64,000 bases of DNA from Leptasterias polaris. Lineage: Eukaryota > Echinodermata > Asteroidea > Forcipulatida > Asteriidae. The stretch's first letter is position 1, and every line of letters begins with the position of its first letter. Location: assembly GCA_037783415.1 (NCBI GenBank), contig JAZGTN010000188.1:372001-436000 (forward strand). Direction: 5' to 3'. Below, piece after piece: positions 1,727 through 62,295 of the stretch. A model generated the notes under the pieces. That model saw only the letters and a list, made by a program, of their open reading frames with translations, did no database searches and was not told the origin of the DNA. The position numbers were made by a program, and so were the translations under genes.

Positions 1727-1990
1727 AAACCCTAGGCCTAGCCCCCAACCAGCAGCCTAAACCCTACACTATACTGTACAACCCTCGGCAAAAACCGTAG
1801 CCGTCAGCCCAAACCCCAGCCCCCAGCCCAAACCCTACACCCATGCCGAATCATAGCCCCCAGCCCTAACCCTAGCCCCTAGCCGAAATCATAGCCCCAG
1901 CCCAAACCCTAACCCCCAGCCGAGCCTACCCCCAAAGCCCAAAACCCTAGCCGTCAGCCCGGACCCTATCCCCCAGCCCAAACACCTTAT
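1727..1990. repeat. Telomere-like CCCTAA/CAGCCC block within each satellite unit
   Basis: This stretch is built from degenerate hexamer-like words: CCCTAA, CCCTAG, CCCTAC, CAGCCC and CAGCCCAAACCC. The same block recurs in every unit (for example 1-125, 3590-3850, 5455-5710 and 38380-38640). On the minus strand it reads as GGGTTAGGG and GGGCTGGGG runs, so G-quadruplex formation is plausible. It is not a true telomere because no uninterrupted (CCCTAA)n run is present. It resembles subtelomeric or degenerate interstitial telomeric sequence. The C-rich strand running 5' to 3' on + fits a telomere to the left, which is inference. Confidence 0.8.
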
Positions 1991-7864: not shown

Positions 7865-7885
7865 CCCCCCCCCCCCCCCCTCTTT
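7865..7885. repeat. Satellite unit with expanded C-run and 20-bp contraction
   Basis: In the unit beginning at 7457 the usual C-run of about 11 is 16 bases long and runs directly into CTCTTTCCC. The segment normally between them (TTCTCAGGCCC...ATCCCC) is missing, which shortens the unit to 1844 bp. The C-run also varies elsewhere; for example, it is interrupted by a T at 4137-4147. This is a replication-slippage hotspot and also a place where sequencing errors concentrate. Confidence 0.8.
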
Positions 7886-13800: not shown

Positions 13801-16767
13801 GCCCTTATAGGGCGCACCACACCAAATAAGCCAGAATTAATGCGCCAAGCTACTTATCATAATTTGTAAACCCACAACTTATTTTTAATTACAACGTTTT
13901 GGGGGTCATGCAATTAATAGATTGTGTAAATATAATAATCTATCACAACCTGGGGGTTCTGTGCTTCAACTTTTGAGGAGACTTGATAAATTTAGGCGTT
14001 AAAGTTGGCCCTATTTGACCGGGTAAGTGGAGAAGTGCTTCACGAAAACTGGCAGCAAGTCGGTTTTGGAAAAATACAAATTTTCGCGTTTTTTTCTTCT
14101 GGGGTAGTTAGCAAAAATTCCAAACGGCTGACCTGGCAAAAATTGAAAAGAATTCTGAAGTTCAGTCGTCCGAAAATATGTTTGATTGGTTTTCAAGAGG
14201 CTGAGAGACTTTCACGATTTTTTGAGTATTTTTGAATATTTATCATTTAGCATTGGTTCCTATGGGAGTTTATTTAGTGTGGTGCGCCCTATATATACAA
14301 CATGGCGGCGCCCGTGCAGCCATGTTTGTGTTCTGTTTACATTTATGTAGGCTTGAAACAACGACAGTAATGAGTTGTGTGGGGGCATTGTTTGTCACTT
14401 TGTTGCTGTTTTTACATTGGATACATCATTTCTTTGACTGTAAACTGTTATATAGCAATAATGTTTCTATTTCCTCAAATTACAATACATTTATTAACCG
14501 AGAATAATTCAACGTTTCACACTCAAAGAGGGGTTTGCTTTCTAAACCTGCATGGTTAAACTATGAAAAGTAATAAGTATGAGACTGACGGTTTTAGTCA
14601 CATTCAAAGAATCATGAGCCAACGTGGCTGGTTGAATATGAAAAAGGAGAGAAAAACCACCAACAGACTATTTGAAGAGGAGTAGGGGAGGTGGTGGATA
14701 TGTCATCATATATGTCAAGTTTCCGGAAGGTGAATGCACTCTGATGCGTGTGAAACCCTAGGCCTAGCCCCCAACCAGCAGCCTAAACCCTACACTATAC
14801 TGTACAACCCTCGGCAAAAACCGTAGCCGTCAGCCCAAACCCCAGCCCCCAGCCCAAACCCTACACCCATGCCGAATCATAGCCCCCAGCCCTAACCCTA
14901 GCCCCTAGCCGAAATCATAGCCCCAGCCCAAACCCTAACCCCCAGCCGAGCCTACCCCCAAAGCCCAAAACCCTAGCCGTCAGCCCGGACCCTATCCCCC
15001 AGCCCAAACACCTTATTAGCTTACAGTCTTAACTCTTAACTATATAGTCCAATTGTTCCCGTTCACCCACAATTTATTAACCGTAAAGTGCTCTGGAAGG
15101 GCATTTTGCAACAAGCCCCGCCCACGCCCCGCCCACCCATTCACCCCCCTTATCCCTTATCAGCTAGGTAAAATGAAACTTGGAATGACATTTAAACGTG
15201 GTAAAATGACCTATGTATATTCTTTTTTGTTATAAAGTTCACCATTTTAAACTCAATATGAATACATGGTTAAAAATGTTGGCGGGTAAGCAAAATCTGC
15301 CCCCCCCCCCCTTCTCAGGCCCTCCCTCTTCAATCCCCTTTCCCTTTTACAGCTTCCACATTAGTTAACCCCCTCTTGTCAACTATTAAAAATAATTGTA
15401 AGGCGTTTAGAATCGTATAACTAAAAAAAAAAGAGATACGTTTATAACTTGTTGAGTGACTAGGATTTGGATATAACAATTACTGACTTGTGTAATGCAG
15501 GTTTTTCTTATCGCATTGCTTAGAGTACATGTAAATGCTCAAACATGTTTGACCTTGTTGTAGACGAACGCAATAACATTTCCAATTAATTTTTTCAGAT
15601 ATCAAGTCAGTGACTTATTTTCAACAATTTAAGCATACTTTTTTAACCATAAAGAATAATTAAGTGCCCTTATAGGGCGCACCACACCAAATAAGCCAGA
15701 ATTAATGCGCCAAGCTACTTATCATAATTTGTAAACCCACAACTTATTTTTAATTACAACGTTTTGGGGGTCATGCAATTAATAGATTGTGTAAATATAA
15801 TAATCTATCACAACCTGGGGGTTCTGTGCTTCAACTTTTGAGGAGACTTGATAAATTTAGGCGTTAAAGTTGGCCCTATTTGACCGGGTAAGTGGAGAAG
15901 TGCTTCACGAAAACTGGCAGCAAGTCGGTTTTGGAAAAATACAAATTTTCGCGTTTTTTTCTTCTGGGGTAGTTAGCAAAAATTCCAAACGGCTGACCTG
16001 GCAAAAATTGAAAAGAATTCTGAAGTTCAGTCGTCCGAAAATATGTTTGATTGGTTTTCAAGAGGCTGAGAGACTTTCACGATTTTTTGAGTATTTTTGA
16101 ATATTTATCATTTAGCATTGGTTCCTATGGGAGTTTATTTAGTGTGGTGCGCCCTATATATACAACATGGCGGCGCCCGTGCAGCCATGTTTGTGTTCTG
16201 TTTACATTTATGTAGGCTTGAAACAACGACAGTAATGAGTTGTGTGGGGGCATTGTTTGTCACTTTGTTGCTGTTTTTACATTGGAAACATCATTTCTTT
16301 GACTGTAAACTGTTAGTATAGCAATAATGTTTCTATTTCCTCAAATTACAATACATTTATTAACCGAGAATAATTCAACGTTTCACACTCAAAGAGGGGT
16401 TTGCTTTCTAAACCTGCATGGTTAAACTATGAAAAGTAATAAGTATGAGACTGACGGTTTTAGTCACATTCAAAGAATCATGAGCCAACGTGGCTGGTTG
16501 AATATGAAAAAGGAGAGAAAAACCACCAACAGACTATTTGAAGAGGAGTAGGGGAGGTGGTGGATATGTCATCATATATGTCAAGTTTCCGGAAGGTGAA
16601 TGCACTCTGATGCGTGTGAAACCCTAGGCCTAGCCCCCAACCAGCAGCCTAAACCCTACACTATACTGTACAACCCTCGGCAAAAACCGTAGCCGTCAGC
16701 CCAAACCCCAGCCCCCAGCCCAAACCCTACACCCATGCCGAATCATAGCCCCCAGCCCTAACCCTAG

Positions 16768-17370
16768 TCTTCTGACCTCACTAAGTCGAGTATGTGACGA
16801 AATTAGTCAGAGGTTAAACACTATTCCATGGAATACCAGTCATTTGCTTCTTTATTGGAACCAGTGTGAAACTGTAATAAACAAGAATAAAACATACATT
16901 TAGTTATAAAGCATAACGTGAAGGAAGCCTTAGAATATAAGTAGGCTGGCATAGAATAGGTAAAGTCACATAAAAGACCCTAAATCCATGCTAAAATACG
17001 AAACAAAAGAATTGCCCAGTTTCCGGACAAACGTTAAACGTGTAGTGCCTTCGCAATGCACACATGGTCAAAAAGTACATGTACAACGCACATGTAGCCG
17101 ATTTTGGCAACAACAGTTTTAAGGAACTAAACTAGCCTGAAAACCCAACAAATCGAGTGAGCTAGACAAGGAATGAACTATGATAATAAGACAGAATGTA
17201 AAACTTACAGATTGTGCTTGATCCAAGGGAAAAAACAAGGATATTGGGGCTCAAAACGGCAGAATTATACGAAGGCTTTACAACGGGAAAATGATAGACG
17301 TGAGTAAAATAATAATCTCTAGAGGGCGCTATATAAAAAGGCGAGAGGCCTAAGTTCTCGGGGCAAGACA
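16768..17370 (-). repeat. 3' LTR of BEL/Pao copy 1
   Basis: This 603-bp direct repeat matches 23307-23909. It abuts the satellite target duplication CCTAG on its left and the polypurine tract on its right. Confidence 0.95.
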
Positions 17371-17380
17371 CTCCCCGCCT
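17371..17380 (-). other. Polypurine tract, BEL/Pao copy 1
   Basis: In element orientation AGGCGGGGAG lies directly before the 3' LTR start TGTCTTGCC. This purine run in the expected position would prime plus-strand DNA synthesis in LTR retrotransposons. Confidence 0.75.
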
Positions 17381-17451
17381 GGCATCTGTAAGATGTCAAA
17401 TCTAGCAATAGAAGAGAGTTTACAGTGGGAGCACTTTTTGGTGATCACTAT

Positions 17452-20400
17452 CTACTGATCAGAGTCTTTGGCGAGAAGGAGAACAACTTCAGTCACAGGC
17501 CTCAAGAACAGCTTCGGTTCTCCGCTTCGGATGACTTTGACTTCAATTTTCCTGACTTTCCCGTCATCACTTGGAAAGGTCTTGTTGATCATCCCAAGAG
17601 GCCAGCCATTTCTCTTGGCTTGAGAATCTTTCATGAGGACTACGTCTCCTTCTCGCAAGTTTGGTTTCTCAGATGTCCACTTAGTGCGTGTCTGAAGACA
17701 GTTGAGGTACTCCTGCCTCCACCTTTTCCAGAACATGTCAGCTAATCTCTGTACACGTTGCCACTGACATCTGAAGAGATCCTTATCATCAAACTCGCAA
17801 GGGGAGACAGAAGGTATACCAACCTTCTGTGTAAGGAGTGTCGCTGGTGTCAGAATGGAAGGGTGTTCAGGATCTGTAGAGACTGGGGTAAGCGGTCTGG
17901 AATTTATGATCGCAGTCACCTCTGCCATGAGAGTTGTCAACACTTCATGAGTTAGTATGCCTGGTCCAAGCTGAAGTAGCATGGCATCGAGAATGCGGCG
18001 TGTGATGCCAATCATCCTTTCCCAGCTGCCGCCCATGTGCGAGGCGTGAGGAGGGTTGAACTGCCACTCACATCTGTTATCAGCAAGGATATTCTCAATC
18101 TGCTCCTTCTGACGTCCTGAGGAGTTGATGCCAAGCTCACTACAGGCTCCTACAAAGTTAGTCCCGCAATCAGACCTCAACAGCTTTGCAGGTCCTCTCA
18201 ATGCGAAGAAGCGTCTCAGTGCGTTCACGAAGCTAGAGGTGTCCATAGACTCGATCACTTCGATGTGAACAGCACGGGCGGCCATACATGTAAAAATCAC
18301 AGCCCATCGCTTGCTGTTGGCTTGTCCTCCTCTTGTTTTTCGGGCTGTCACTGTCCAGGGGCCGAAGACATCTAGGCCTACATAGGTGAAGGGTGGACTT
18401 GTGCTAAGGCGGTCAGCAGGCAAGTCTGCCATTATCTGCTCTTGTAGCTTGCCTCGCAGTCTTCGACAGGTTACACAGTGGTAGATCAAACTGCTGATGA
18501 CTCGCTTACCACCAAGGACCCAGAAACCGGCTGCTCTTATGGCACCTTCAGTGAAGTGTCTGCCCTGATGCCGGACTACTTCATGGTAGTGTCTGATGAG
18601 AAGCGTAGTGACATAGCATTTCCCGGGGATTACCACTGGGTGTGTCTCACCAGTAGACAGCTTGGCTTTCTCAAGTCGACCTCCAACCCTGAGAAGACCG
18701 TCTTTGTCGACAAAGGGGTGTAGCTTCTGAAGCGGGCTGGACCGAGGAATGGGTTGGCCACTTTCAAGACGTCTGAGCTCGTCTGCATAGGCTGTTGTCT
18801 GAACAGCACGAAGAATTGCCATCTTTGCTCGAGTCAGTTGGTCTGGGCTTAAGTGCTCCTTACATTGGTGCCATCCTCGACAAGGGCTACCTCTATCTAC
18901 TTGCGAAAAGGAGTGAGCGAGGTGGGTGAGTCTCGAAATGGCTTTCTGAAGCGACCTCCAACTTGAGAAGTGTTTGAAGCGTCCACTGGTCAGGCCTGCT
19001 TTAGAAACGTCTGTGGCACAGGTGGTAACTTGGGGTCTCACTTCTGTGTCGCTTTCGGGATCAACCAAGCTGAATGTCTCCTGACATAAGGAGGGGGAAC
19101 TGTGTTTAGGATCACAGAGGAATGCGGGTCCACTTAGCCAAGTAGATGTAGATAATCCAGATGCCGGTAGTGCCCTGGTAGCATGATCGGCAGGATTATG
19201 GTCCGTCGGGACGTAGTTCCACTGGCTTGCTTCAGAGGAGCGTTTGATGCGTTGCACTCGGTTCTGGATATAAACGTAGAAACGTCTGGTCTTGTTGTAG
19301 ATATACCCAAGCACAACTTTGCTATCACTGAAGAACTTGACTCCATGCAGATGTACATCTAATTCGTCTTGGACTGTCTCTGCGATTTCTACGGCCATAA
19401 CAGCTGCTGCAAGTTCCAGACGAGGGATCGTGGGTTCAGGCTTAGGAGCAAGCTTTGCCTTGCCAAAGATAAATCCTACTTCGCAATGACCCTCACCATC
19501 TGTGATCTTGAGGTATGAGACAGCCGCAATCGCTTTTGTCGATGCATCACAGAAGACATACAACTCTCGCTTCTGGGCTTGAGAGAGTGGGAGAGTAGTG
19601 TACATTCTTGGGATCTTCAGTTCCTGGAGATCTTCGAGGGAGTTCTTCCATCTCATCCATTCCTCATACTTTTCTTTAGGAAGAGGTGTGTCCCAGTCAC
19701 AGGAGTCACGGTTAAGTTCTCTGAGGATGGAGCGACCCTGGATACTTACTGGAGCAGCATATCCGAGGGGATCGAATAGGCTGTTGATGGTAGACAATAC
19801 CCCACGTCTTGTAAATGGCTTGTCACTGGTCGTCGCTTGGAAGGTGAATGTGTCTGCTGCCAAGTCCCACTGAAGGCCCAAGCTCCGCTGCGTTTGAAGG
19901 GAGTCTTGTCCAAGGTCAAGGTTCTGAAGCCCTTTGGCAAGGTCTTCTTTGGGAAAGGCTTTCATGACATCTGCACTGTTAGATGCGATTTTGTGAAGAC
20001 GAAGATTGGACTGTGCTAGCATGTCTTGTGATTTCTCCAACACTTCAACAGCCTTGCTAACACTGGGAAATGACTGAAGCCCGTCATCGACGTAGAAATG
20101 TCGATCGACGAAGAGTCTTGCTTGGTCACCATACTCTTCATGTCCTTCTGCAGCCGTTCTCTTAAGTCCGTAGATCGCTACAGCTGGTGACGGACAGTTG
20201 CCAAATACATGGACCCTCATGCGATAGTCCAGGATGTCCCCATCAAGGTTGTTGTTGTCAAACCAAAGAAAGCGGAGGTAATCTCTGTGTTCTTTCTTGA
20301 CGAGAAAACTATGGAACATCTGCTGGATATCGGCCATGATGGCTATTGGTTCACATCTGAAGCGAATGAGAATGCCTAGCAGACTGTTGTTGAGATCTGG

Positions 20401-23238
20401 ACCTCTGAGTAGCACGTCGTTCAAGGATACATTGTCATGTTGAGAGCTGGAGTCGAACACGATTCTGATTTGGCCCGGTTTCTTCGGGTGATAAACACCA
20501 AAGCTAGGTAGGTACCAGCACTCTTGGCCTGGCTGGAGTGGTAAAGCTAACTCTGCATGACCACTGATGAAAATCTTGTCCATGAATTCAATGTAGTGGT
20601 CTTTCATCTTGGGTTTCTTGAGGAGAGTGCGACGAAGAGACATAAGACGGTTCACTACTTGTTGTCTGTTGTTGGGTAGGCGTCGCCGGGGGGTTCGAAA
20701 GGGGAGAGGGCCCACCCAACTGTTGGAGTCATCTCTGACAAATTCTTCATTCATGATGGAGAGGAAAGTGTCGTCTTCAACTGACGGGGCCAACTTGTAA
20801 TCTTCAGGAGACTCAAGGAAGACATCGGAGCCGATACTATCTAGCTGTTGTTTCTCATGTCTGGGAGTCTTGTTGACGAACGTTTCCTTCACATGGAATT
20901 TGCTCTCACATGGTGTTAAGTGGCTTGGACGGCCGTTATCAAGGATACTCGTTTTGAAGCTATTGACGGCTGGTTTGTGAGCTCCCCCGAGGCAGACATC
21001 TCCCACTATGACCCATCCCAAGTCCAATTGTTGGGCGTAGGGGGCAGTGTGGGGTCCGTTGCTCTGACTGCGAACCTTGTGGACCTGAATTACATCTCTG
21101 CCAAGTAGAAGAAGAATCTGTGCTGTTTGATCAAGCGGAGGGATCATGTGAGCGATGGCCTTTAGGTGAGGATGATGCCTTGCAGCCTCAGGAGTTGGAA
21201 TTTCACATCGATTGTTTGGGATAGAGTCGCACTCGAGGAGTGGTGGCAAGGCCAGCTGGACTTCTTCATCTGCTGATTGTATTATGAAGCCGTTAGCTCT
21301 CCTTCCATAGGCGCTTGTTGTGCCAGAACATGTGCGGAGTTCGTAGGGAGAGGTGTCTCCGAGAATGTTAAACATGTCAAAGAAGGCAGACCTGGCAAGC
21401 GAGCGGTTGCTTTGATCATCCAACATCACATACACCTTCACCTTCATGTCGGGTTGGCCCTGCGGATACACGCTGGCTAGACATATCTTGGAACACGATT
21501 TTCCAGGTAGACCATCTCCACAAACGTCTGTGCAACTTGTGGAAGCTACTGATGGCTCTTTACTGGGTTGCTCCCCGCCATGGTTTTCCACAGACAAAGA
21601 ATCGGTTCTTTTCCAAGGTGGCAGGCCATTATGAAGGGCGGATACATGACGATCGCTGTCACACTCAGTGCAGCGAATTTGAACGTTGCAGTCATTTGCC
21701 ATGTGAGAAGTAGAAGCACAGCACCTGTAGCAAATACCATGCTCTCTGAGAAAGGCCTTTCTTTCCTCCAATGGTTTTCCTCTGAAGCCACGGCACCTTC
21801 TCAAGGAGTGGGGTCTCTTGTGAATGGGGCACTGCTTGTCTGGGTCCATCAGTTCATTGGGGGCAAAGGTCGAAGTTTTCTCCACCTCAGTCTTGTGCAC
21901 AGCGATTGAGGGCTTTGATATGAACGAACTTGGCATGGGCTTATGGCTTGTGGATGTCGTCATGCTGGACGAACGGAAAGCAAAGCTTGGATCAGTTCTC
22001 ATGTCGGCCTGTGAGTACACAAAGTCAGCGAAGAAAGTAAATGGGGGGAAAGGAACATGATGCGTTTTCTTGTACATCGAGCCCTGAGTCAACCACTTTT
22101 CCTGTAGAAATTGAGGGAGCTTTTCAACAATCGGATTTATCCCTCTGGAAGTGTCCAAGTAGTTAAGTCCGGGTAGGTTGTCTTCAAGCTTTGCTGCTTT
22201 CACTTCTGTGAGAAGATCTGCAAGTTCCTGTAGTCTCGGGTAGTCTCTGTTCCCAATCTTAGGGAAGGTGTCCAGACGAGAAAAAAGTGACTCCTCTATT
22301 GCCTCAGGGGACCCATACATCTTGTCCAATCTTTGCCATACCTTAATTAGGCCATCTGAAGGATTGTTTATGTGGACTGCCCTGATCCTCGTAGCATGCT
22401 GAAGTGACTCTCCGCCAAGCCACCTAGTAAGTAGATCGAGTTCTTCACTTGCTTTTAGGTTTAATCCCTGGGTAACATTGCGATAACTGGCTCTCCATGA
22501 CAAGTAGTTCTCTGGCCGATTATCAAAAACCTTGAGTCCGGCTGTGAGAAGGTCTCGACGAGCGAGGTGGACTGTGAGGTCAAAGACATCTGAATGGCTT
22601 TGCAAAAACGGGTTTGACCTCCCGTTGTCATGCCATCGTCTGTCTGATAGGTCAGTGTATTGTGCAGTGTGTAGAAAGGGATTTAGCACACCAGCTTGCG
22701 GGGGCGGAGTATAGAAGTCGGGCGGATCCAAGTGGGGATGAGCAGATGAAAGAGCTTGAGCTTCAACAGCAGTGCTTTGTGGGTGCAAGTGTTCATCAGG
22801 GCGCTCTTTAGGACTAATCTTAGTAGGCTGGTAATCGGTGTGGTTATCAGGATGGTCAAAATGTGCGTTTATGTATTCTTCTGTACGTTGCTCGGGTTGG
22901 ACTGATAGGGCAAGATGACTGGTGATGCTTGCTCTATCCTCAGTTTCTTTGGCATTTACAGCTGCCTCCAGTGTTTTGGCAGCAGCCAATGCAGATTCAG
23001 CTTCACCTTCTTTCTGCATGGCGAACAGCATAGCGTCAATGCGTGCACGTTCCACCTTCATCTCGATTTGACGCCTGGTGTAATCAGCTTTCGTGCGTGC
23101 GGCCTCTGCTTTAGCACGCGCCTCTACTGCAGCCAAGCTGATGTGTGACCTGGTTGAACATCGTGAAGATGAGGATGATCCGGGTTTGTATTCTGAAAGT
23201 ATCTCCCAGTTCTGAGAAACTCCTGGAGGAGATGACAT
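17452..23238 (-). CDS. BEL/Pao gag-pol polyprotein (1928 aa), copy 1
   Basis: A single ATG-initiated frame covers nearly the whole interior of the element. Residues 35-100 are Ala/Glu/Arg/Lys-rich, likely coiled coil. Residues 225-370 resemble the gag-like DUF1759 region. Zinc knuckles follow: C503, C506, H512, C517 (spacing C-x2-C-x5-H-x4-C, slightly off canonical), then C523, C526, H531, H536. The aspartic-protease-like DUF1758 region has LDDQSN at 606-611. Reverse transcriptase spans about 905-1080, with catalytic D970 and YVDD at 1049-1052. RNase H spans about 1225-1355, with D1231, E1275, D1305 and D1346 or D1351. Integrase has the zinc-binding H1552/H1557/C1588/C1591 group and the D1623, D1690, E1740 triad, followed by a DUF5641-like tail to 1920. 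No stops or frameshifts interrupt it. Gag and Pol are in one frame without a readthrough or frameshift signal, as in other BEL/Pao elements. It encodes the enzymes for reverse transcription and integration. Confidence 0.96.
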   Translation of the reverse strand: MSSPPGVSQNWEILSEYKPGSSSSSRCSTRSHISLAAVEARAKAEAARTKADYTRRQIEMKVERARIDAMLFAMQKEGEAESALAAAKTLEAAVNAKETEDRASITSHLALSVQPEQRTEEYINAHFDHPDNHTDYQPTKISPKERPDEHLHPQSTAVEAQALSSAHPHLDPPDFYTPPPQAGVLNPFLHTAQYTDLSDRRWHDNGRSNPFLQSHSDVFDLTVHLARRDLLTAGLKVFDNRPENYLSWRASYRNVTQGLNLKASEELDLLTRWLGGESLQHATRIRAVHINNPSDGLIKVWQRLDKMYGSPEAIEESLFSRLDTFPKIGNRDYPRLQELADLLTEVKAAKLEDNLPGLNYLDTSRGINPIVEKLPQFLQEKWLTQGSMYKKTHHVPFPPFTFFADFVYSQADMRTDPSFAFRSSSMTTSTSHKPMPSSFISKPSIAVHKTEVEKTSTFAPNELMDPDKQCPIHKRPHSLRRCRGFRGKPLEERKAFLREHGICYRCCASTSHMANDCNVQIRCTECDSDRHVSALHNGLPPWKRTDSLSVENHGGEQPSKEPSVASTSCTDVCGDGLPGKSCSKICLASVYPQGQPDMKVKVYVMLDDQSNRSLARSAFFDMFNILGDTSPYELRTCSGTTSAYGRRANGFIIQSADEEVQLALPPLLECDSIPNNRCEIPTPEAARHHPHLKAIAHMIPPLDQTAQILLLLGRDVIQVHKVRSQSNGPHTAPYAQQLDLGWVIVGDVCLGGAHKPAVNSFKTSILDNGRPSHLTPCESKFHVKETFVNKTPRHEKQQLDSIGSDVFLESPEDYKLAPSVEDDTFLSIMNEEFVRDDSNSWVGPLPFRTPRRRLPNNRQQVVNRLMSLRRTLLKKPKMKDHYIEFMDKIFISGHAELALPLQPGQECWYLPSFGVYHPKKPGQIRIVFDSSSQHDNVSLNDVLLRGPDLNNSLLGILIRFRCEPIAIMADIQQMFHSFLVKKEHRDYLRFLWFDNNNLDGDILDYRMRVHVFGNCPSPAVAIYGLKRTAAEGHEEYGDQARLFVDRHFYVDDGLQSFPSVSKAVEVLEKSQDMLAQSNLRLHKIASNSADVMKAFPKEDLAKGLQNLDLGQDSLQTQRSLGLQWDLAADTFTFQATTSDKPFTRRGVLSTINSLFDPLGYAAPVSIQGRSILRELNRDSCDWDTPLPKEKYEEWMRWKNSLEDLQELKIPRMYTTLPLSQAQKRELYVFCDASTKAIAAVSYLKITDGEGHCEVGFIFGKAKLAPKPEPTIPRLELAAAVMAVEIAETVQDELDVHLHGVKFFSDSKVVLGYIYNKTRRFYVYIQNRVQRIKRSSEASQWNYVPTDHNPADHATRALPASGLSTSTWLSGPAFLCDPKHSSPSLCQETFSLVDPESDTEVRPQVTTCATDVSKAGLTSGRFKHFSSWRSLQKAISRLTHLAHSFSQVDRGSPCRGWHQCKEHLSPDQLTRAKMAILRAVQTTAYADELRRLESGQPIPRSSPLQKLHPFVDKDGLLRVGGRLEKAKLSTGETHPVVIPGKCYVTTLLIRHYHEVVRHQGRHFTEGAIRAAGFWVLGGKRVISSLIYHCVTCRRLRGKLQEQIMADLPADRLSTSPPFTYVGLDVFGPWTVTARKTRGGQANSKRWAVIFTCMAARAVHIEVIESMDTSSFVNALRRFFALRGPAKLLRSDCGTNFVGACSELGINSSGRQKEQIENILADNRCEWQFNPPHASHMGGSWERMIGITRRILDAMLLQLGPGILTHEVLTTLMAEVTAIINSRPLTPVSTDPEHPSILTPATLLTQKVGIPSVSPCEFDDKDLFRCQWQRVQRLADMFWKRWRQEYLNCLQTRTKWTSEKPNLREGDVVLMKDSQAKRNGWPLGMINKTFPSDDGKVRKIEVKVIRSGEPKLFLRPVTEVVLLLAKDSDQ

Positions 23239-23250
23239 TTTGAAGTAGTG

Positions 23251-23266
23251 TTGCAGGGAACCACCA
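23251..23266 (-). other. Candidate tRNA primer-binding site, BEL/Pao copy 1
   Basis: In element orientation TGGTGGTTCCCTGCAA begins 40 bases after the 5' LTR and ends 12 bases before the gag-pol ATG. It starts with TGG, the complement of the tRNA CCA end. It is not immediately next to the LTR, so the assignment is tentative and I cannot name the tRNA. Confidence 0.45.
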
Positions 23267-23306
23267 GTTAATGAAGATGCTCTTGTTGAGAAGCTAATCT
23301 TTTCAC

Positions 23307-23909
23307 TCTTCTGACCTCACTAAGTCGAGTATGTGACGAAATTAGTCAGAGGTTAAACACTATTCCATGGAATACCAGTCATTTGCTTCTTTATTGGAAC
23401 CAGTGTGAAACTGTAATAAACAAGAATAAAACATACATTTAGTTATAAAGCATAACGTGAAGGAAGCCTTAGAATATAAGTAGGCTGGCATAGAATAGGT
23501 AAAGTCACATAAAAGACCCTAAATCCATGCTAAAATACGAAACAAAAGAATTGCCCAGTTTCCGGACAAACGTTAAACGTGTAGTGCCTTCGCAATGCAC
23601 ACATGGTCAAAAAGTACATGTACAACGCACATGTAGCCGATTTTGGCAACAACAGTTTTAAGGAACTAAACTAGCCTGAAAACCCAACAAATCGAGTGAG
23701 CTAGACAAGGAATGAACTATGATAATAAGACAGAATGTAAAACTTACAGATTGTGCTTGATCCAAGGGAAAAAACAAGGATATTGGGGCTCAAAACGGCA
23801 GAATTATACGAAGGCTTTACAACGGGAAAATGATAGACGTGAGTAAAATAATAATCTCTAGAGGGCGCTATATAAAAAGGCGAGAGGCCTAAGTTCTCGG
23901 GGCAAGACA
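23307..23909 (-). repeat. 5' LTR of BEL/Pao copy 1 with TATA and poly(A) signals
   Basis: This LTR would drive the element. In element orientation a TATA-like TTTTTATATAG lies about 30-41 bases into the LTR (23869-23880 on +), and AATAAA lies near the other end (23390-23395). The order suits a promoter upstream and a poly(A) signal downstream, with a long R region between them. The leader between this LTR and the ATG is only 68 bp. Confidence 0.9.
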
Positions 23910-25781: not shown

Positions 25782-26384
25782 TCTTCTGACCTCACTAAGT
25801 CGAGTATGTGACGAAATTAGTCAGAGGTTAAACACTATTCCATGGAATACCAGTCATTTGCTTCTTTATTGGAACCAGTGTGAAACTGTAATAAACAAGA
25901 ATAAAACATACATTTAGTTATAAAGCATAACGTGAAGGAAGCCTTAGAATATAAGTAGGCTGGCATAGAATAGGTAAAGTCACATAAAAGACCCTAAATC
26001 CATGCTAAAATACGAAACAAAAGAATTGCCCAGTTTCCGGACAAACGTTAAACGTGTAGTGCCTTCGCAATGCACACATGGTCAAAAAGTACATGTACAA
26101 CGCACATGTAGCCGATTTTGGCAACAACAGTTTTAAGGAACTAAACTAGCCTGAAAACCCAACAAATCGAGTGAGCTAGACAAGGAATGAACTATGATAA
26201 TAAGACAGAATGTAAAACTTACAGATTGTGCTTGATCCAAGGGAAAAAACAAGGATATTGGGGCTCAAAACGGCAGAATTATACGAAGGCTTTACAACGG
26301 GAAAATGATAGACGTGAGTAAAATAATAATCTCTAGAGGGCGCTATATAAAAAGGCGAGAGGCCTAAGTTCTCGGGGCAAGACA
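25782..26384 (-). repeat. 3' LTR of BEL/Pao copy 2
   Basis: A 603-bp LTR matching the three other LTRs in the window, followed inward by the polypurine tract at 26385-26394. Confidence 0.95.
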
Positions 26385-26394
26385 CTCCCCGCCT
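26385..26394 (-). other. Polypurine tract, BEL/Pao copy 2
   Basis: AGGCGGGGAG in element orientation, directly before the 3' LTR, identical to the tract in copy 1. Confidence 0.75.
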
Positions 26395-26465
26395 GGCATC
26401 TGTAAGATGTCAAATCTAGCAATAGAAGAGAGTTTACAGTGGGAGCACTTTTTGGTGATCACTAT

Positions 26466-29400
26466 CTACTGATCAGAGTCTTTGGCGAGAAGGAGAACAA
26501 CTTCAGTCACAGGCCTCAAGAACAGCTTCGGTTCTCCGCTTCGGATGACTTTGACTTCAATTTTCCTGACTTTCCCGTCATCACTTGGAAAGGTCTTGTT
26601 GATCATCCCAAGAGGCCAGCCATTTCTCTTGGCTTGAGAATCTTTCATGAGGACTACGTCTCCTTCTCGCAAGTTTGGTTTCTCAGATGTCCACTTAGTG
26701 CGTGTCTGAAGACAGTTGAGGTACTCCTGCCTCCACCTTTTCCAGAACATGTCAGCTAATCTCTGTACACGTTGCCACTGACATCTGAAGAGATCCTTAT
26801 CATCAAACTCGCAAGGGGAGACAGAAGGTATACCAACCTTCTGTGTAAGGAGTGTCGCTGGTGTCAGAATGGAAGGGTGTTCAGGATCTGTAGAGACTGG
26901 GGTAAGCGGTCTGGAATTTATGATCGCAGTCACCTCTGCCATGAGAGTTGTCAACACTTCATGAGTTAGTATGCCTGGTCCAAGCTGAAGTAGCATGGCA
27001 TCGAGAATGCGGCGTGTGATGCCAATCATCCTTTCCCAGCTGCCGCCCATGTGCGAGGCGTGAGGAGGGTTGAACTGCCACTCACATCTGTTATCAGCAA
27101 GGATATTCTCAATCTGCTCCTTCTGACGTCCTGAGGAGTTGATGCCAAGCTCACTACAGGCTCCTACAAAGTTAGTCCCGCAATCAGACCTCAACAGCTT
27201 TGCAGGTCCTCTCAATGCGAAGAAGCGTCTCAGTGCGTTCACGAAGCTAGAGGTGTCCATAGACTCGATCACTTCGATGTGAACAGCACGGGCGGCCATA
27301 CATGTAAAAATCACAGCCCATCGCTTGCTGTTGGCTTGTCCTCCTCTTGTTTTTCGGGCTGTCACTGTCCAGGGGCCGAAGACATCTAGGCCTACATAGG
27401 TGAAGGGTGGACTTGTGCTAAGGCGGTCAGCAGGCAAGTCTGCCATTATCTGCTCTTGTAGCTTGCCTCGCAGTCTTCGACAGGTTACACAGTGGTAGAT
27501 CAAACTGCTGATGACTCGCTTACCACCAAGGACCCAGAAACCGGCTGCTCTTATGGCACCTTCAGTGAAGTGTCTGCCCTGATGCCGGACTACTTCATGG
27601 TAGTGTCTGATGAGAAGCGTAGTGACATAGCATTTCCCGGGGATTACCACTGGGTGTGTCTCACCAGTAGACAGCTTGGCTTTCTCAAGTCGACCTCCAA
27701 CCCTGAGAAGACCGTCTTTGTCGACAAAGGGGTGTAGCTTCTGAAGCGGGCTGGACCGAGGAATGGGTTGGCCACTTTCAAGACGTCTGAGCTCGTCTGC
27801 ATAGGCTGTTGTCTGAACAGCACGAAGAATTGCCATCTTTGCTCGAGTCAGTTGGTCTGGGCTTAAGTGCTCCTTACATTGGTGCCATCCTCGACAAGGG
27901 CTACCTCTATCTACTTGCGAAAAGGAGTGAGCGAGGTGGGTGAGTCTCGAAATGGCTTTCTGAAGCGACCTCCAACTTGAGAAGTGTTTGAAGCGTCCAC
28001 TGGTCAGGCCTGCTTTAGAAACGTCTGTGGCACAGGTGGTAACTTGGGGTCTCACTTCTGTGTCGCTTTCGGGATCAACCAAGCTGAATGTCTCCTGACA
28101 TAAGGAGGGGGAACTGTGTTTAGGATCACAGAGGAATGCGGGTCCACTTAGCCAAGTAGATGTAGATAATCCAGATGCCGGTAGTGCCCTGGTAGCATGA
28201 TCGGCAGGATTATGGTCCGTCGGGACGTAGTTCCACTGGCTTGCTTCAGAGGAGCGTTTGATGCGTTGCACTCGGTTCTGGATATAAACGTAGAAACGTC
28301 TGGTCTTGTTGTAGATATACCCAAGCACAACTTTGCTATCACTGAAGAACTTGACTCCATGCAGATGTACATCTAATTCGTCTTGGACTGTCTCTGCGAT
28401 TTCTACGGCCATAACAGCTGCTGCAAGTTCCAGACGAGGGATCGTGGGTTCAGGCTTAGGAGCAAGCTTTGCCTTGCCAAAGATAAATCCTACTTCGCAA
28501 TGACCCTCACCATCTGTGATCTTGAGGTATGAGACAGCCGCAATCGCTTTTGTCGATGCATCACAGAAGACATACAACTCTCGCTTCTGGGCTTGAGAGA
28601 GTGGGAGAGTAGTGTACATTCTTGGGATCTTCAGTTCCTGGAGATCTTCGAGGGAGTTCTTCCATCTCATCCATTCCTCATACTTTTCTTTAGGAAGAGG
28701 TGTGTCCCAGTCACAGGAGTCACGGTTAAGTTCTCTGAGGATGGAGCGACCCTGGATACTTACTGGAGCAGCATATCCGAGGGGATCGAATAGGCTGTTG
28801 ATGGTAGACAATACCCCACGTCTTGTAAATGGCTTGTCACTGGTCGTCGCTTGGAAGGTGAATGTGTCTGCTGCCAAGTCCCACTGAAGGCCCAAGCTCC
28901 GCTGCGTTTGAAGGGAGTCTTGTCCAAGGTCAAGGTTCTGAAGCCCTTTGGCAAGGTCTTCTTTGGGAAAGGCTTTCATGACATCTGCACTGTTAGATGC
29001 GATTTTGTGAAGACGAAGATTGGACTGTGCTAGCATGTCTTGTGATTTCTCCAACACTTCAACAGCCTTGCTAACACTGGGAAATGACTGAAGCCCGTCA
29101 TCGACGTAGAAATGTCGATCGACGAAGAGTCTTGCTTGGTCACCATACTCTTCATGTCCTTCTGCAGCCGTTCTCTTAAGTCCGTAGATCGCTACAGCTG
29201 GTGACGGACAGTTGCCAAATACATGGACCCTCATGCGATAGTCCAGGATGTCCCCATCAAGGTTGTTGTTGTCAAACCAAAGAAAGCGGAGGTAATCTCT
29301 GTGTTCTTTCTTGACGAGAAAACTATGGAACATCTGCTGGATATCGGCCATGATGGCTATTGGTTCACATCTGAAGCGAATGAGAATGCCTAGCAGACTG

Positions 29401-32252
29401 TTGTTGAGATCTGGACCTCTGAGTAGCACGTCGTTCAAGGATACATTGTCATGTTGAGAGCTGGAGTCGAACACGATTCTGATTTGGCCCGGTTTCTTCG
29501 GGTGATAAACACCAAAGCTAGGTAGGTACCAGCACTCTTGGCCTGGCTGGAGTGGTAAAGCTAACTCTGCATGACCACTGATGAAAATCTTGTCCATGAA
29601 TTCAATGTAGTGGTCTTTCATCTTGGGTTTCTTGAGGAGAGTGCGACGAAGAGACATAAGACGGTTCACTACTTGTTGTCTGTTGTTGGGTAGGCGTCGC
29701 CGGGGGGTTCGAAAGGGGAGAGGGCCCACCCAACTGTTGGAGTCATCTCTGACAAATTCTTCATTCATGATGGAGAGGAAAGTGTCGTCTTCAACTGACG
29801 GGGCCAACTTGTAATCTTCAGGAGACTCAAGGAAGACATCGGAGCCGATACTATCTAGCTGTTGTTTCTCATGTCTGGGAGTCTTGTTGACGAACGTTTC
29901 CTTCACATGGAATTTGCTCTCACATGGTGTTAAGTGGCTTGGACGGCCGTTATCAAGGATACTCGTTTTGAAGCTATTGACGGCTGGTTTGTGAGCTCCC
30001 CCGAGGCAGACATCTCCCACTATGACCCATCCCAAGTCCAATTGTTGGGCGTAGGGGGCAGTGTGGGGTCCGTTGCTCTGACTGCGAACCTTGTGGACCT
30101 GAATTACATCTCTGCCAAGTAGAAGAAGAATCTGTGCTGTTTGATCAAGCGGAGGGATCATGTGAGCGATGGCCTTTAGGTGAGGATGATGCCTTGCAGC
30201 CTCAGGAGTTGGAATTTCACATCGATTGTTTGGGATAGAGTCGCACTCGAGGAGTGGTGGCAAGGCCAGCTGGACTTCTTCATCTGCTGATTGTATTATG
30301 AAGCCGTTAGCTCTCCTTCCATAGGCGCTTGTTGTGCCAGAACATGTGCGGAGTTCGTAGGGAGAGGTGTCTCCGAGAATGTTAAACATGTCAAAGAAGG
30401 CAGACCTGGCAAGCGAGCGGTTGCTTTGATCATCCAACATCACATACACCTTCACCTTCATGTCGGGTTGGCCCTGCGGATACACGCTGGCTAGACATAT
30501 CTTGGAACACGATTTTCCAGGTAGACCATCTCCACAAACGTCTGTGCAACTTGTGGAAGCTACTGATGGCTCTTTACTGGGTTGCTCCCCGCCATGGTTT
30601 TCCACAGACAAAGAATCGGTTCTTTTCCAAGGTGGCAGGCCATTATGAAGGGCGGATACATGACGATCGCTGTCACACTCAGTGCAGCGAATTTGAACGT
30701 TGCAGTCATTTGCCATGTGAGAAGTAGAAGCACAGCACCTGTAGCAAATACCATGCTCTCTGAGAAAGGCCTTTCTTTCCTCCAATGGTTTTCCTCTGAA
30801 GCCACGGCACCTTCTCAAGGAGTGGGGTCTCTTGTGAATGGGGCACTGCTTGTCTGGGTCCATCAGTTCATTGGGGGCAAAGGTCGAAGTTTTCTCCACC
30901 TCAGTCTTGTGCACAGCGATTGAGGGCTTTGATATGAACGAACTTGGCATGGGCTTATGGCTTGTGGATGTCGTCATGCTGGACGAACGGAAAGCAAAGC
31001 TTGGATCAGTTCTCATGTCGGCCTGTGAGTACACAAAGTCAGCGAAGAAAGTAAATGGGGGGAAAGGAACATGATGCGTTTTCTTGTACATCGAGCCCTG
31101 AGTCAACCACTTTTCCTGTAGAAATTGAGGGAGCTTTTCAACAATCGGATTTATCCCTCTGGAAGTGTCCAAGTAGTTAAGTCCGGGTAGGTTGTCTTCA
31201 AGCTTTGCTGCTTTCACTTCTGTGAGAAGATCTGCAAGTTCCTGTAGTCTCGGGTAGTCTCTGTTCCCAATCTTAGGGAAGGTGTCCAGACGAGAAAAAA
31301 GTGACTCCTCTATTGCCTCAGGGGACCCATACATCTTGTCCAATCTTTGCCATACCTTAATTAGGCCATCTGAAGGATTGTTTATGTGGACTGCCCTGAT
31401 CCTCGTAGCATGCTGAAGTGACTCTCCGCCAAGCCACCTAGTAAGTAGATCGAGTTCTTCACTTGCTTTTAGGTTTAATCCCTGGGTAACATTGCGATAA
31501 CTGGCTCTCCATGACAAGTAGTTCTCTGGCCGATTATCAAAAACCTTGAGTCCGGCTGTGAGAAGGTCTCGACGAGCGAGGTGGACTGTGAGGTCAAAGA
31601 CATCTGAATGGCTTTGCAAAAACGGGTTTGACCTCCCGTTGTCATGCCATCGTCTGTCTGATAGGTCAGTGTATTGTGCAGTGTGTAGAAAGGGATTTAG
31701 CACACCAGCTTGCGGGGGCGGAGTATAGAAGTCGGGCGGATCCAAGTGGGGATGAGCAGATGAAAGAGCTTGAGCTTCAACAGCAGTGCTTTGTGGGTGC
31801 AAGTGTTCATCAGGGCGCTCTTTAGGACTAATCTTAGTAGGCTGGTAATCGGTGTGGTTATCAGGATGGTCAAAATGTGCGTTTATGTATTCTTCTGTAC
31901 GTTGCTCGGGTTGGACTGATAGGGCAAGATGACTGGTGATGCTTGCTCTATCCTCAGTTTCTTTGGCATTTACAGCTGCCTCCAGTGTTTTGGCAGCAGC
32001 CAATGCAGATTCAGCTTCACCTTCTTTCTGCATGGCGAACAGCATAGCGTCAATGCGTGCACGTTCCACCTTCATCTCGATTTGACGCCTGGTGTAATCA
32101 GCTTTCGTGCGTGCGGCCTCTGCTTTAGCACGCGCCTCTACTGCAGCCAAGCTGATGTGTGACCTGGTTGAACATCGTGAAGATGAGGATGATCCGGGTT
32201 TGTATTCTGAAAGTATCTCCCAGTTCTGAGAAACTCCTGGAGGAGATGACAT
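26466..32252 (-). CDS. BEL/Pao gag-pol polyprotein (1928 aa), copy 2
   Basis: The frame has the same length and same residues as the copy 1 polyprotein, with every catalytic motif retained: RT D970 and YVDD 1049-1052, RNase H D1231/E1275/D1305, and integrase D1623/D1690/E1740. Two open copies without any coding difference mean that the duplication is recent, that the copies have been homogenised, or that the assembly has repeated one locus. Confidence 0.95.
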   Translation of the reverse strand: MSSPPGVSQNWEILSEYKPGSSSSSRCSTRSHISLAAVEARAKAEAARTKADYTRRQIEMKVERARIDAMLFAMQKEGEAESALAAAKTLEAAVNAKETEDRASITSHLALSVQPEQRTEEYINAHFDHPDNHTDYQPTKISPKERPDEHLHPQSTAVEAQALSSAHPHLDPPDFYTPPPQAGVLNPFLHTAQYTDLSDRRWHDNGRSNPFLQSHSDVFDLTVHLARRDLLTAGLKVFDNRPENYLSWRASYRNVTQGLNLKASEELDLLTRWLGGESLQHATRIRAVHINNPSDGLIKVWQRLDKMYGSPEAIEESLFSRLDTFPKIGNRDYPRLQELADLLTEVKAAKLEDNLPGLNYLDTSRGINPIVEKLPQFLQEKWLTQGSMYKKTHHVPFPPFTFFADFVYSQADMRTDPSFAFRSSSMTTSTSHKPMPSSFISKPSIAVHKTEVEKTSTFAPNELMDPDKQCPIHKRPHSLRRCRGFRGKPLEERKAFLREHGICYRCCASTSHMANDCNVQIRCTECDSDRHVSALHNGLPPWKRTDSLSVENHGGEQPSKEPSVASTSCTDVCGDGLPGKSCSKICLASVYPQGQPDMKVKVYVMLDDQSNRSLARSAFFDMFNILGDTSPYELRTCSGTTSAYGRRANGFIIQSADEEVQLALPPLLECDSIPNNRCEIPTPEAARHHPHLKAIAHMIPPLDQTAQILLLLGRDVIQVHKVRSQSNGPHTAPYAQQLDLGWVIVGDVCLGGAHKPAVNSFKTSILDNGRPSHLTPCESKFHVKETFVNKTPRHEKQQLDSIGSDVFLESPEDYKLAPSVEDDTFLSIMNEEFVRDDSNSWVGPLPFRTPRRRLPNNRQQVVNRLMSLRRTLLKKPKMKDHYIEFMDKIFISGHAELALPLQPGQECWYLPSFGVYHPKKPGQIRIVFDSSSQHDNVSLNDVLLRGPDLNNSLLGILIRFRCEPIAIMADIQQMFHSFLVKKEHRDYLRFLWFDNNNLDGDILDYRMRVHVFGNCPSPAVAIYGLKRTAAEGHEEYGDQARLFVDRHFYVDDGLQSFPSVSKAVEVLEKSQDMLAQSNLRLHKIASNSADVMKAFPKEDLAKGLQNLDLGQDSLQTQRSLGLQWDLAADTFTFQATTSDKPFTRRGVLSTINSLFDPLGYAAPVSIQGRSILRELNRDSCDWDTPLPKEKYEEWMRWKNSLEDLQELKIPRMYTTLPLSQAQKRELYVFCDASTKAIAAVSYLKITDGEGHCEVGFIFGKAKLAPKPEPTIPRLELAAAVMAVEIAETVQDELDVHLHGVKFFSDSKVVLGYIYNKTRRFYVYIQNRVQRIKRSSEASQWNYVPTDHNPADHATRALPASGLSTSTWLSGPAFLCDPKHSSPSLCQETFSLVDPESDTEVRPQVTTCATDVSKAGLTSGRFKHFSSWRSLQKAISRLTHLAHSFSQVDRGSPCRGWHQCKEHLSPDQLTRAKMAILRAVQTTAYADELRRLESGQPIPRSSPLQKLHPFVDKDGLLRVGGRLEKAKLSTGETHPVVIPGKCYVTTLLIRHYHEVVRHQGRHFTEGAIRAAGFWVLGGKRVISSLIYHCVTCRRLRGKLQEQIMADLPADRLSTSPPFTYVGLDVFGPWTVTARKTRGGQANSKRWAVIFTCMAARAVHIEVIESMDTSSFVNALRRFFALRGPAKLLRSDCGTNFVGACSELGINSSGRQKEQIENILADNRCEWQFNPPHASHMGGSWERMIGITRRILDAMLLQLGPGILTHEVLTTLMAEVTAIINSRPLTPVSTDPEHPSILTPATLLTQKVGIPSVSPCEFDDKDLFRCQWQRVQRLADMFWKRWRQEYLNCLQTRTKWTSEKPNLREGDVVLMKDSQAKRNGWPLGMINKTFPSDDGKVRKIEVKVIRSGEPKLFLRPVTEVVLLLAKDSDQ

Positions 32253-32264
32253 TTTGAAGTAGTG

Positions 32265-32280
32265 TTGCAGGGAACCACCA
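32265..32280 (-). other. Candidate primer-binding site, BEL/Pao copy 2
   Basis: Same TGG-initiated 16-mer as in copy 1, 40 bases inside the 5' LTR. Tentative for the same reason. Confidence 0.45.
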
Positions 32281-32320
32281 GTTAATGAAGATGCTCTTGT
32301 TGAGAAGCTAATCTTTTCAC

Positions 32321-32923
32321 TCTTCTGACCTCACTAAGTCGAGTATGTGACGAAATTAGTCAGAGGTTAAACACTATTCCATGGAATACCAGTCATTTGC
32401 TTCTTTATTGGAACCAGTGTGAAACTGTAATAAACAAGAATAAAACATACATTTAGTTATAAAGCATAACGTGAAGGAAGCCTTAGAATATAAGTAGGCT
32501 GGCATAGAATAGGTAAAGTCACATAAAAGACCCTAAATCCATGCTAAAATACGAAACAAAAGAATTGCCCAGTTTCCGGACAAACGTTAAACGTGTAGTG
32601 CCTTCGCAATGCACACATGGTCAAAAAGTACATGTACAACGCACATGTAGCCGATTTTGGCAACAACAGTTTTAAGGAACTAAACTAGCCTGAAAACCCA
32701 ACAAATCGAGTGAGCTAGACAAGGAATGAACTATGATAATAAGACAGAATGTAAAACTTACAGATTGTGCTTGATCCAAGGGAAAAAACAAGGATATTGG
32801 GGCTCAAAACGGCAGAATTATACGAAGGCTTTACAACGGGAAAATGATAGACGTGAGTAAAATAATAATCTCTAGAGGGCGCTATATAAAAAGGCGAGAG
32901 GCCTAAGTTCTCGGGGCAAGACA
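32321..32923 (-). repeat. 5' LTR of BEL/Pao copy 2
   Basis: A 603-bp LTR whose TATA-like (32883-32894) and AATAAA (32404-32409) signals are placed as in copy 1. The right edge meets the satellite target duplication CCTAG. Confidence 0.93.
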
Positions 32924-35900
32924 CCTAGCCCCTAGCCGAAATCATAGCCCCAGCCCAAACCCTAACCCCCAGCCGAGCCTACCCCCAAAGCCCAAAACCC
33001 TAGCCGTCAGCCCGGACCCTATCCCCCAGCCCAAACACCTTATTAGCTTACAGTCTTAACTCTTAACTATATAGTCCAATTGTTCCCGTTCACCCACAAT
33101 TTATTAACCGTAAAGTGCTCTGGAAGGGCATTTTGCAACAAGCCCCGCCCACGCCCCGCCCACCCATTCACCCCCCTTATCCCTTATCAGCTAGGTAAAA
33201 TGAAACTTGGAATGACATTTAAACGTGGTAAAATGACCTATGTATATTCTTTTTTGTTATAAAGTTCACCATTTTAAACTCAATATGAATACATGGTTAA
33301 AAATGTTGGCGGGTAAGCAAAATCTGCCCCCCCCCCCTTCTCAGGCCCTCCCTCTTCAATCCCCTTTCCCTTTTACAGCTTCCACATTAGTTAACCCCCT
33401 CTTGTCAACTATTAAAAATAATTGTAAGGCGTTTAGAATCGTATAACTAAAAAAAAAAGAGATACGTTTATAACTTGTTGAGTGACTAGGATTTGGATAT
33501 AACAATTACTGACTTGTGTAATGCAGGTTTTTCTTATCGCATTGCTTAGAGTACATGTAAATGCTCAAACATGTTTGACCTTGTTGTAGACGAACGCAAT
33601 AACATTTCCAATTAATTTTTTCAGATATCAAGTCAGTGACTTATTTTCAACAATTTAAGCATACTTTTTTAACCATAAAGAATAATTAAGTGCCCTTATA
33701 GGGCGCACCACACCAAATAAGCCAGAATTAATGCGCCAAGCTACTTATCATAATTTGTAAACCCACAACTTATTTTTAATTACAACGTTTTGGGGGTCAT
33801 GCAATTAATAGATTGTGTAAATATAATAATCTATCACAACCTGGGGGTTCTGTGCTTCAACTTTTGAGGAGACTTGATAAATTTAGGCGTTAAAGTTGGC
33901 CCTATTTGACCGGGTAAGTGGAGAAGTGCTTCACGAAAACTGGCAGCAAGTCGGTTTTGGAAAAATACAAATTTTCGCGGTTTTTTCTTCTGGGGTAGTT
34001 AGCAAAAATTCCAAACGGCTGACCTGGCAAAAATTGAAAAGAATTCTGAAGTTCAGTCGTCCGAAAATATGTTTGATTGGTTTTCAAGAGGCTGAGAGAC
34101 TTTCACGATTTTTTGAGTATTTTTGAATATTTATCATTTAGCATTGGTTCCTATGGGAGTTTATTTAGTGTGGTGCGCCCTATATATACAACATGGCGGC
34201 GCCCGTGCAGCCATGTTTGTGTTCTGTTTACATTTATGTAGGCTTGAAACAACGACAGTAATGAGTTGTGTGGGGGCATTGTTTGTCACTTTGTTGCTGT
34301 TTTTACATTGGATACATCATTTCTTTGACTGTAAACTGTTAGTATAGCAATAATGTTTCTATTTCCTCAAATTACAATACATTTATTAACCGAGAATAAT
34401 TCAACGTTTCACACTCAAAGAGGGGTTTGCTTTCTAAACCTGCATGGTTAAACTATGAAAAGTAATAAGTATGAGACTGACGGTTTTAGTCACATTCAAA
34501 GAATCATGAGCCAACGTGGCTGGTTGAATATGAAAAAGGAGAGAAAAACCACCAACAGACTATTTGAAGAGGAGTAGGGGAGGTGGTGGATATGTCATCA
34601 TATATGTCAAGTTTCCGGAAGGTGAATGCACTCTGATGCGTGTGAAACCCTAGGCCTAGCCCCCAACCAGCAGCCTAAACCCTACACTATACTGTACAAC
34701 CCTCGGCAAAAACCGTAGCCGTCAGCCCAAACCCCAGCCCCCAGCCCAAACCCTACACCCATGCCGAATCATAGCCCCCAGCCCTAACCCTAGCCCCTAG
34801 CCGAAATCATAGCCCCAGCCCAAACCCTAACCCCCAGCCGAGCCTACCCCCAAAGCCCAAAACCCTAGCCGTCAGCCCGGACCCTATCCCCCAGCCCAAA
34901 CACCTTATTAGCTTACAGTCTTAACTCTTAACTATATAGTCCAATTGTTCCCGTTCACCCACAATTTATTAACCGTAAAGTGCTCTGGAAGGGCATTTTG
35001 CAACAAGCCCCGCCCACGCCCCGCCCACCCATTCACCCCCCTTATCCCTTATCAGCTAGGTAAAATGAAACTTGGAATGACATTTAAACGTGGTAAAATG
35101 ACCTATGTATATTCTTTTTTGTTATAAAGTTCACCATTTTAAACTCAATATGAATACATGGTTAAAAATGTTGGCGGGTAAGCAAAATCTGCCCCCCCCC
35201 CCCTTCTCAGGCCCTCCCTCTTCAATCCCCTTTCCCTTTTACAGCTTCCACATTAGTTAACCCCCTCTTGTCAACTATTAAAAATAATTGTAAGGCGTTT
35301 AGAATCGTATAACTAAAAAAAAAAGAGATACGTTTATAACTTGTTGAGTGACTAGGATTTGGATATAACAATTACTGACTTGTGTAATGCAGGTTTTTCT
35401 TATCGCATTGCTTAGAGTACATGTAAATGCTCAAACATGTTTGACCTTGTTGTAGACGAACGCAATAACATTTCCAATTAATTTTTTCAGATATCAAGTC
35501 AGTGACTTATTTTCAACAATTTAAGCATACTTTTTTAACCATAAAGAATAATTAAGTGCCCTTATAGGGCGCACCACACCAAATAAGCCAGAATTAATGC
35601 GCCAAGCTACTTATCATAATTTGTAAACCCACAACTTATTTTTAATTACAACGTTTTGGGGGTCATGCAATTAATAGATTGTGTAAATATAATAATCTAT
35701 CACAACCTGGGGGTTCTGTGCTTCAACTTTTGAGGAGACTTGATAAATTTAGGCGTTAAAGTTGGCCCTATTTGACCGGGTAAGTGGAGAAGTGCTTCAC
35801 GAAAACTGGCAGCAAGTCGGTTTTGGAAAAATACAAATTTTCGCGGTTTTTTCTTCTGGGGTAGTTAGCAAAAATTCCAAACGGCTGACCTGGCAAAAAT

Positions 35901-43025: not shown

Positions 43026-43049
43026 ATATCAAAAGTATCTATGCAGACT

Positions 43050-44552: not shown

Positions 44553-44590
44553 CCTGAAGTCCAATCACACAAATTTGTTAAATTCCGTTG

Positions 44591-62246: not shown

Positions 62247-62295
62247 GTAAGAGACCAAAATATTTCATATTTTTTAACATACAAACACTGGAAAA

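Follow-up and report, generated by a model that had tools for sequence, protein, structure and literature searches.

A single BEL/Pao retrotransposon insertion probably doubled by misaligned exchange inside what appears to be an expanded composite transposon of Leptasterias polaris

We analysed a 64,000-nucleotide window of the Leptasterias polaris assembly GCA_037783415.1 (contig JAZGTN010000188.1, positions 372,001 to 436,000 of the forward strand; the contig is called C188 below, and other contigs are abbreviated likewise), in which two complete BEL/Pao retrotransposons stand in neighbouring units of a tandem array (Table 1). The history that we favour, with a probability of about 0.75, is that one BEL/Pao element inserted once and was later doubled, together with one array unit, by misaligned exchange inside an expanded composite transposon with terminal inverted repeats (TIRs). 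A single insertion followed by unequal exchange had already been proposed in the initial annotation of the window, and the proposal is strengthened by the hybrid composition of the unit between the two elements, by a second doubled pair of the same family in an unrelated satellite on C299, and by the absence of any insertion-site preference.

Comparison of the window with itself demonstrated that the two BEL/Pao copies, each 7142 bp long, are equal at every letter, and no differences were found among their four long terminal repeats (LTRs). The letter comparison agrees with the earlier description of the pair: the two copies share one insertion base in the repeat unit, each is flanked by CCTAG left and right, and their start-to-start spacing is 9014 bp (7142+5+1867). 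The arrangement had also been called a 9-kb higher-order repeat, a term that overstates two copies. The 9014-bp step is present just twice, with a third element absent from the complete array; the pair so far amounts to a tandem duplication rather than to a 9-kb repeat array. The only open frame of at least 150 amino acids in the element encodes 1928 amino acids on the minus strand and matches the domain models Peptidase_A17 (Pao; 2.1e-45) and DUF5641 (1.3e-26); the integrase core match of 27.8 bits lies under the cut-off of 32.6, and none of the reverse transcriptase models matched this frame at E 0.001. With LTRs bounded by short duplications and Pao-type domains predicted in one pol frame, the element is assigned to BEL/Pao on sequence grounds.

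Table 1. Positions of the two retrotransposons, the adjoining array units and other array features in the 64,000-nucleotide window.
Feature	Position	Strand	Remarks
Array, part within the window	1..43025	+	Part of a 59,019-bp array (C188:356,007-415,025); TIR to TIR, ATAT on both outer sides
Unit L, left of element 1	14897..16762	+	T at 15954, A at 16287, 12-C run
480-bp miniature inverted-repeat transposable element (MITE) in unit L	15675..16154	+	Coordinates derived from unit positions 779-1258
Target duplication CCTAG left of element 1	16763..16767	+	
BEL/Pao copy 1 (7142 bp)	16768..23909	-	
3' LTR of copy 1 (603 bp)	16768..17370	-	
Single open frame of copy 1, 1928 amino acids	17452..23238	-	Peptidase_A17 (Pao), DUF5641, sub-cut-off integrase core
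5' LTR of copy 1	23307..23909	-	Same letters as 3' LTR
Unit M, between the elements (1867 bp)	23910..25776	+	CCTAG start; G at 24968, A at 25301, 13-C run
Target duplication CCTAG left of element 2	25777..25781	+	
BEL/Pao copy 2	25782..32923	-	Equal to copy 1
Unit R, right of element 2	32924..34788	+	CCTAG start; G at 33980, T at 34313, 11-C run
Empty site CCCTTATATATACAAC in a MITE-less unit	41154..41164	+	
Right end of array	43013..43029	+	MITE right TIR, then ATAT

The unit M between the two elements was found to combine alleles of its neighbours L and R. Alignment of 26 unit segments of the array yielded 22 full units. At alignment column 1059, T is found in L and in two units designated u13 and u17, and G in the remaining 19 full units, including M and R; at column 1392, A is confined to L and M among the 22; and an extra G at column 1421 is present in L and in every full unit rightward of it. 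L and M differ by one C in their C-run and at column 1059, with no difference to the right of that column, and M and R differ by two Cs in the C-run and at column 1392, with the C-run as their only difference to its left. M is thus a hybrid, R-like in its left part (G at 24968) and L-like in its right part (A at 25301), and the exchange point inside it would fall at 24969-25300. Such a joining of the right-flank allele to the left-flank allele is predicted by unequal exchange with a shift of one element and one unit.

Near-identical units of ~1865 bp occupy window positions 1-16767, 23910-25781 and 32924-43029 in the self-comparison. The host array is complete in its 1.97-Mb contig, begins 16 kb before the window and contains only these two elements; neither the unit nor the element was found again in the 64 kb to the left and the 21 kb to the right of the array. 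Each unit consists of a MITE of 480 bp and a spacer of ~1386 bp (1.39 kb). The 480-bp stretch, with inverted ends GGGCGCAC...GTGCGCCC, lies at unit positions 779-1258 and was present in all 22 full units. One MITE-less unit each was observed in the C188 array and in a related array on C154, where the empty site CCCTTATATATACAAC has one TATA in place of the two found in MITE-bearing units. These units may be relics of the unit before MITE insertion or may have arisen by precise excision. The C154 example lies at C154:286100-287700, and spacings that fall ~480-490 bp short of a unit multiple suggest more MITE-less units in C154, C3 and C26. The host had initially been described as a satellite, a wording that the analysis does not support. 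The array extends from TIR to TIR between two ATAT copies, and dispersed 2.3-kb composites with 4-bp duplications exist as well (described below); the most fitting reading is a composite TIR transposon of the form MITE-(spacer-MITE)n that has expanded.

Dispersed copies of the MITE were recognized by 200 exact left termini that lack the C standing eight bases upstream in the array unit, a few of which (e.g., one after ACCTTATA) may be mutated units. Eight of these sites were sampled: two MITEs were solo, five ran into the spacer, and one had an unreadable right end. Both solo copies, readable on either side, are bounded by duplications (TGTG and CTAC), and all five spacer-containing copies are closed elements of 2326-2371 bp with the 4-bp duplications CTGT, ATGT, CTAG, AGCG, and ATAT. 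Four of the five are plain MITE-spacer-MITE composites, whose paired MITEs differ at 0-7 of 480 positions, plus one 11-bp gap; the fifth (C23, ATGT) is different inside, with a 923-bp repeat from which part of the MITE is missing. The spacer-MITE junction gave 494 exact matches. The 100 matches listed (C2-C26) represent 24 loci, 15 of them with one junction and the rest with up to at least 35. Among these 24 loci, a MITE left terminus was located 0.6-2.5 kb upstream in 13 (at 1852-1909 bp in 11) and 7.4 kb upstream in one, and 10 had none; since the patterns were exact, the junction and terminus counts are lower bounds, and the last locus has at least the number counted. The 2.3-kb dimers and the long arrays are best read as one continuum, in which the terminal direct repeats of the composite recombine. 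A longer period of ~2530 bp was observed at C9:14527680-14535302, which contains four junctions of the composite.

The BEL/Pao family was surveyed in the assembly with a probe of 1001 bp from the element interior. All 26 candidates were scored, which gave 16 sites with 18 copies at ≥98% identity, one copy being split in two, plus weaker relatives. A second doubled pair was detected on C299, where two 7140-bp copies without any differences are spaced 12,019 bp apart and share one insertion base in a AATCCAATC satellite. The 2-kb flanks of this pair align at 95.8% and 98.2%, compared to 0.55-0.90 in 25 control comparisons, one of which (0.88) partly overlapped the second flank; a 26th (0.984), which overlapped nearly all of that flank, was excluded. 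All rare 25-mers sampled from the first flanks (40 of 40 and 50 of 50) were found again in the second. Doublings were observed at two of the four sites in tandem arrays and at none of the 12 sites elsewhere (16 sites; Fisher p 0.05). A tandem-repeat scan of the flanks placed the insertions on C87 (25-bp repeats) and C107 (162-bp repeats) next to tandem arrays; a site on C146, with a 2.6-copy repeat some hundred bases off, was scored as non-array, and its reclassification gives p 0.08 by hand.

Several observations weigh against the history of one insertion and one misaligned exchange. The hybrid signal of M comes from just two substitutions, and the T at column 1059 occurs also in u13 and u17. 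C299 is weaker ground, being a contig of 51.8 kb that begins with 5000 N, and its pair is more open to assembly error. The array-adjoining insertions on C87 and C107 are single, and the sorting of sites into array and non-array was made after the doublings had been seen. With respect to the composite host, only 13 of the 43 MITE left ends on C2-C26 have an exact junction 0.5-2.7 kb downstream, so many MITEs are solo, truncated or diverged. The opposite tendency is reported for Arabidopsis, in which retrotransposon insertions seem to disturb satellite homogenisation (PMC11410651).

The main competing explanation, which we consider unlikely but of appreciable weight, is an assembly artefact, in which the assembler went twice through one element lying between near-identical units. 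Few letters separate the units of the array, and the assembly breaks inside related arrays, with such array sequence at the end of C182 and at the beginning of C237. An assembler looping through a repeat could also yield a chimeric M, and the hybrid pattern alone therefore does not exclude this origin. However, M matches neither L nor R exactly, and the unrelated satellite on C299 is doubled likewise with flanks that are not letter-identical. The 13-C run of M occurs in neither L (12) nor R (11), a weak point because homopolymers are error-prone.

A real duplication without crossover, either by gene conversion of the element into the next unit or by reintegration of a 9-kb circle, appears improbable. 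It would leave the same letters, and satellite circles are known. The near-equality of the C188 and C154 units despite their different flanks (see below) also fits movement of array DNA. On the other hand, no signature at this locus sets conversion or a circle apart from crossover, and no circle was observed. Crossover, conversion and circle reintegration predict the same letters, so the topology of the duplication is one that we infer.

The insertion sites of the family were examined on both sides at 14 loci besides the C188 and C299 pairs, 13 of which had both LTRs readable. A perfect 5-bp duplication was present in 12 of these 13, with an implied LTR of 603 bp, and the 12 clean duplications are 12 different 5-mers, indicating that this BEL/Pao family inserts without site preference; site-specific integration was rejected on the same ground. 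In the copy on C37, a MITE end is joined inside the 5' LTR, near position 10, and hence no duplication is readable (C37:3544400-3545520). This older copy, in which just one side of the MITE-LTR join was seen, points to a movement of the TIR element later than the BEL/Pao insertion on C37. The 5' LTR of the C107 copy was not readable. By simple arithmetic without site preference, two insertions in the array would share base and orientation with p ~2.7e-4, or ~2.4e-5 when their adjacency is added, and ~1e-6 pairs in this array are expected among 15 random insertions. Although the family is young, with many near-identical copies, and letter identity alone consequently does not exclude two independent insertions at the same base of neighbouring units, this origin, initially called improbable, is extremely improbable at ~2e-5 given two in the array, and it predicts neither the restriction of A to L and M nor the hybrid order.

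A retrotransposon copy at C101:31754-47041 has LTRs spanning 15.3 kb, a 55-bp deletion in the 5' LTR and ~8 kb extra inside. Diverged relatives of the retrotransposon showed 79% probe identity at C64:992679-993625, 86% over 121 bp in a short fragment on C223, and 64-65% probe identity at five further loci (one each on C58, C143 and C65, and two on C27).

In the misaligned-exchange history, a single BEL/Pao insertion, showing no preference for its site, would have hit the minisatellite portion of an array unit. Sister chromatids or homologues would then have paired with a shift equal to one element plus one unit, and an exchange within M (24969-25300) would have produced the order [L-E][M-E]R, where E is the element. 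Dispersed composites with n=1 have moved by transposition as units of 2.3 kb, as the matching 4-bp duplications of the copies checked show. Their direct MITE repeats may then have recombined and raised n to tens, and BEL/Pao would have gained its copy by riding along while another element amplified internally. The absence of differences in the 603-bp LTR gives an upper bound (95%) of ~0.25-1.2 million years for the insertion, and the absence of differences in 7142 bp gives one of 21,000-105,000 years for the doubling, at rates assumed to lie between 2e-9 and 1e-8 per site per year and provided that no conversion erased differences. A broader model is rather doubtful: the composite would make satellite arrays via its own terminal MITEs, arrays and nested retrotransposons would move by the outermost TIRs or by circles, and passengers would thereby multiply by two routes without enzymes of their own.

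Comparison of arrays across sites revealed that 1 mismatch and 7 gap columns in 1866 separate the C188 unit from a C154 unit, whereas the units of C237 and C182 have 25 and 27 mismatches to the C188 unit, all outside the MITE, and ~48 gap columns. The C188 spacer differs from those of four dispersed composites at 25-39 of ~1370 positions. The C154 array has a MITE left end at its start, and its right side breaks off 46-47 bp into a MITE. The near-equality of the C188 and C154 units within different flanks indicates a very recent common source; whole-array transposition or spread by circles would explain the likeness.

We also considered a duplicated locus around the C188 array and rejected it, as the ~770 bp common to the two flanks (98-99%) belong to another repeat with 39-bp inverted ends. 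Its left copy lies at 354,886-355,656 of the contig, ~350 bp left of the array, and its right copy, at window positions 43060-45268, holds 1.43 kb more. A flank probe (43100-43400), which crosses the edge of the extra part, identified a high-copy repeat, with 40 of 1227 candidates scored, each at ≥99%. The probe sequence is thus unbroken at no fewer than 40 places, and the left copy is probably the one that is internally deleted. Farther to the right, a GCAT-like gene contains a duplicated exon region (56453-56682 vs 59051-59286, 95% identical); its frame 59126-59428 matches aminotransferase I/II, frame 56522-56830 has no match, and frame 61988-62296 is nearest to 2-amino-3-ketobutyrate CoA ligases. 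Searches of the whole window with Rfam at the gathering threshold and with a bacterial-code tRNA scan gave no matches.

One locus appears to show two steps of satellite evolution, a transposon grown into a satellite and a retrotransposon later amplified as its passenger. Growth of the composite ranges from 1 to at least 35 exact junctions per locus among the matches listed. If both doublings are real, two of the 18 counted BEL/Pao copies arose without transposition. Doubled copies distort both the dating of insertions by LTR identity and the reading of copy number as a measure of transposition. The kind of event, a retrotransposon copied with satellite segments, is already known and is unusually clear in C188. 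As far as literature searches show, what is new is the combination of a doubled passenger, a mapped exchange interval and a composite MITE host growing from 2.3 to 59 kb.

Doubling is known for centromeric ATHILA elements in Arabidopsis. In rice centromeres, retrotransposons have been enriched by duplication of satellite segments (Ma & Jackson 2006, as cited in sections of PMC4107277 and PMC4806543). The C188 pair resembles the rice case, as described there, in that copies were gained via satellite-segment duplication rather than transposition; it differs in the element, which is BEL/Pao, in the array, for which no centromeric role is known, in the single step of 9 kb with its mapped exchange interval, and in the host, which appears to be an expanded TIR transposon. 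Satellites borne by MITEs or TIR elements are reported from Xenopus, Drosophila, and bivalves in parts of PMC9659126, PMC12628747, and PMC7492417. According to the summaries in the reviews PMC9659126 and PMC12628747, these include Xmix/Xstir (Hikosaka & Kawahara) and miDNA4 (Scalvenzi & Pollet), and the abstract-level account of Tetris (PMC4079207) describes TIR-borne tandem repeats. Like these systems, the composite of L. polaris is a short TIR element that carries or seeds arrays of variable length; unlike them, to the extent covered by those sources, it has a whole MITE in nearly every unit, terminal direct repeats and an LTR element inside. The oyster Cg_HINE Helentrons contain central satellite-DNA-like arrays, as outlined in portions of PMC7492417, and share with the composite the dispersal of tandem arrays as the insides of a non-autonomous DNA transposon. 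In contrast to the Helentrons outlined there, the composite has TIRs and a 4-bp duplication, Helitron-type ends not having been looked for, and its units contain the terminal element itself.

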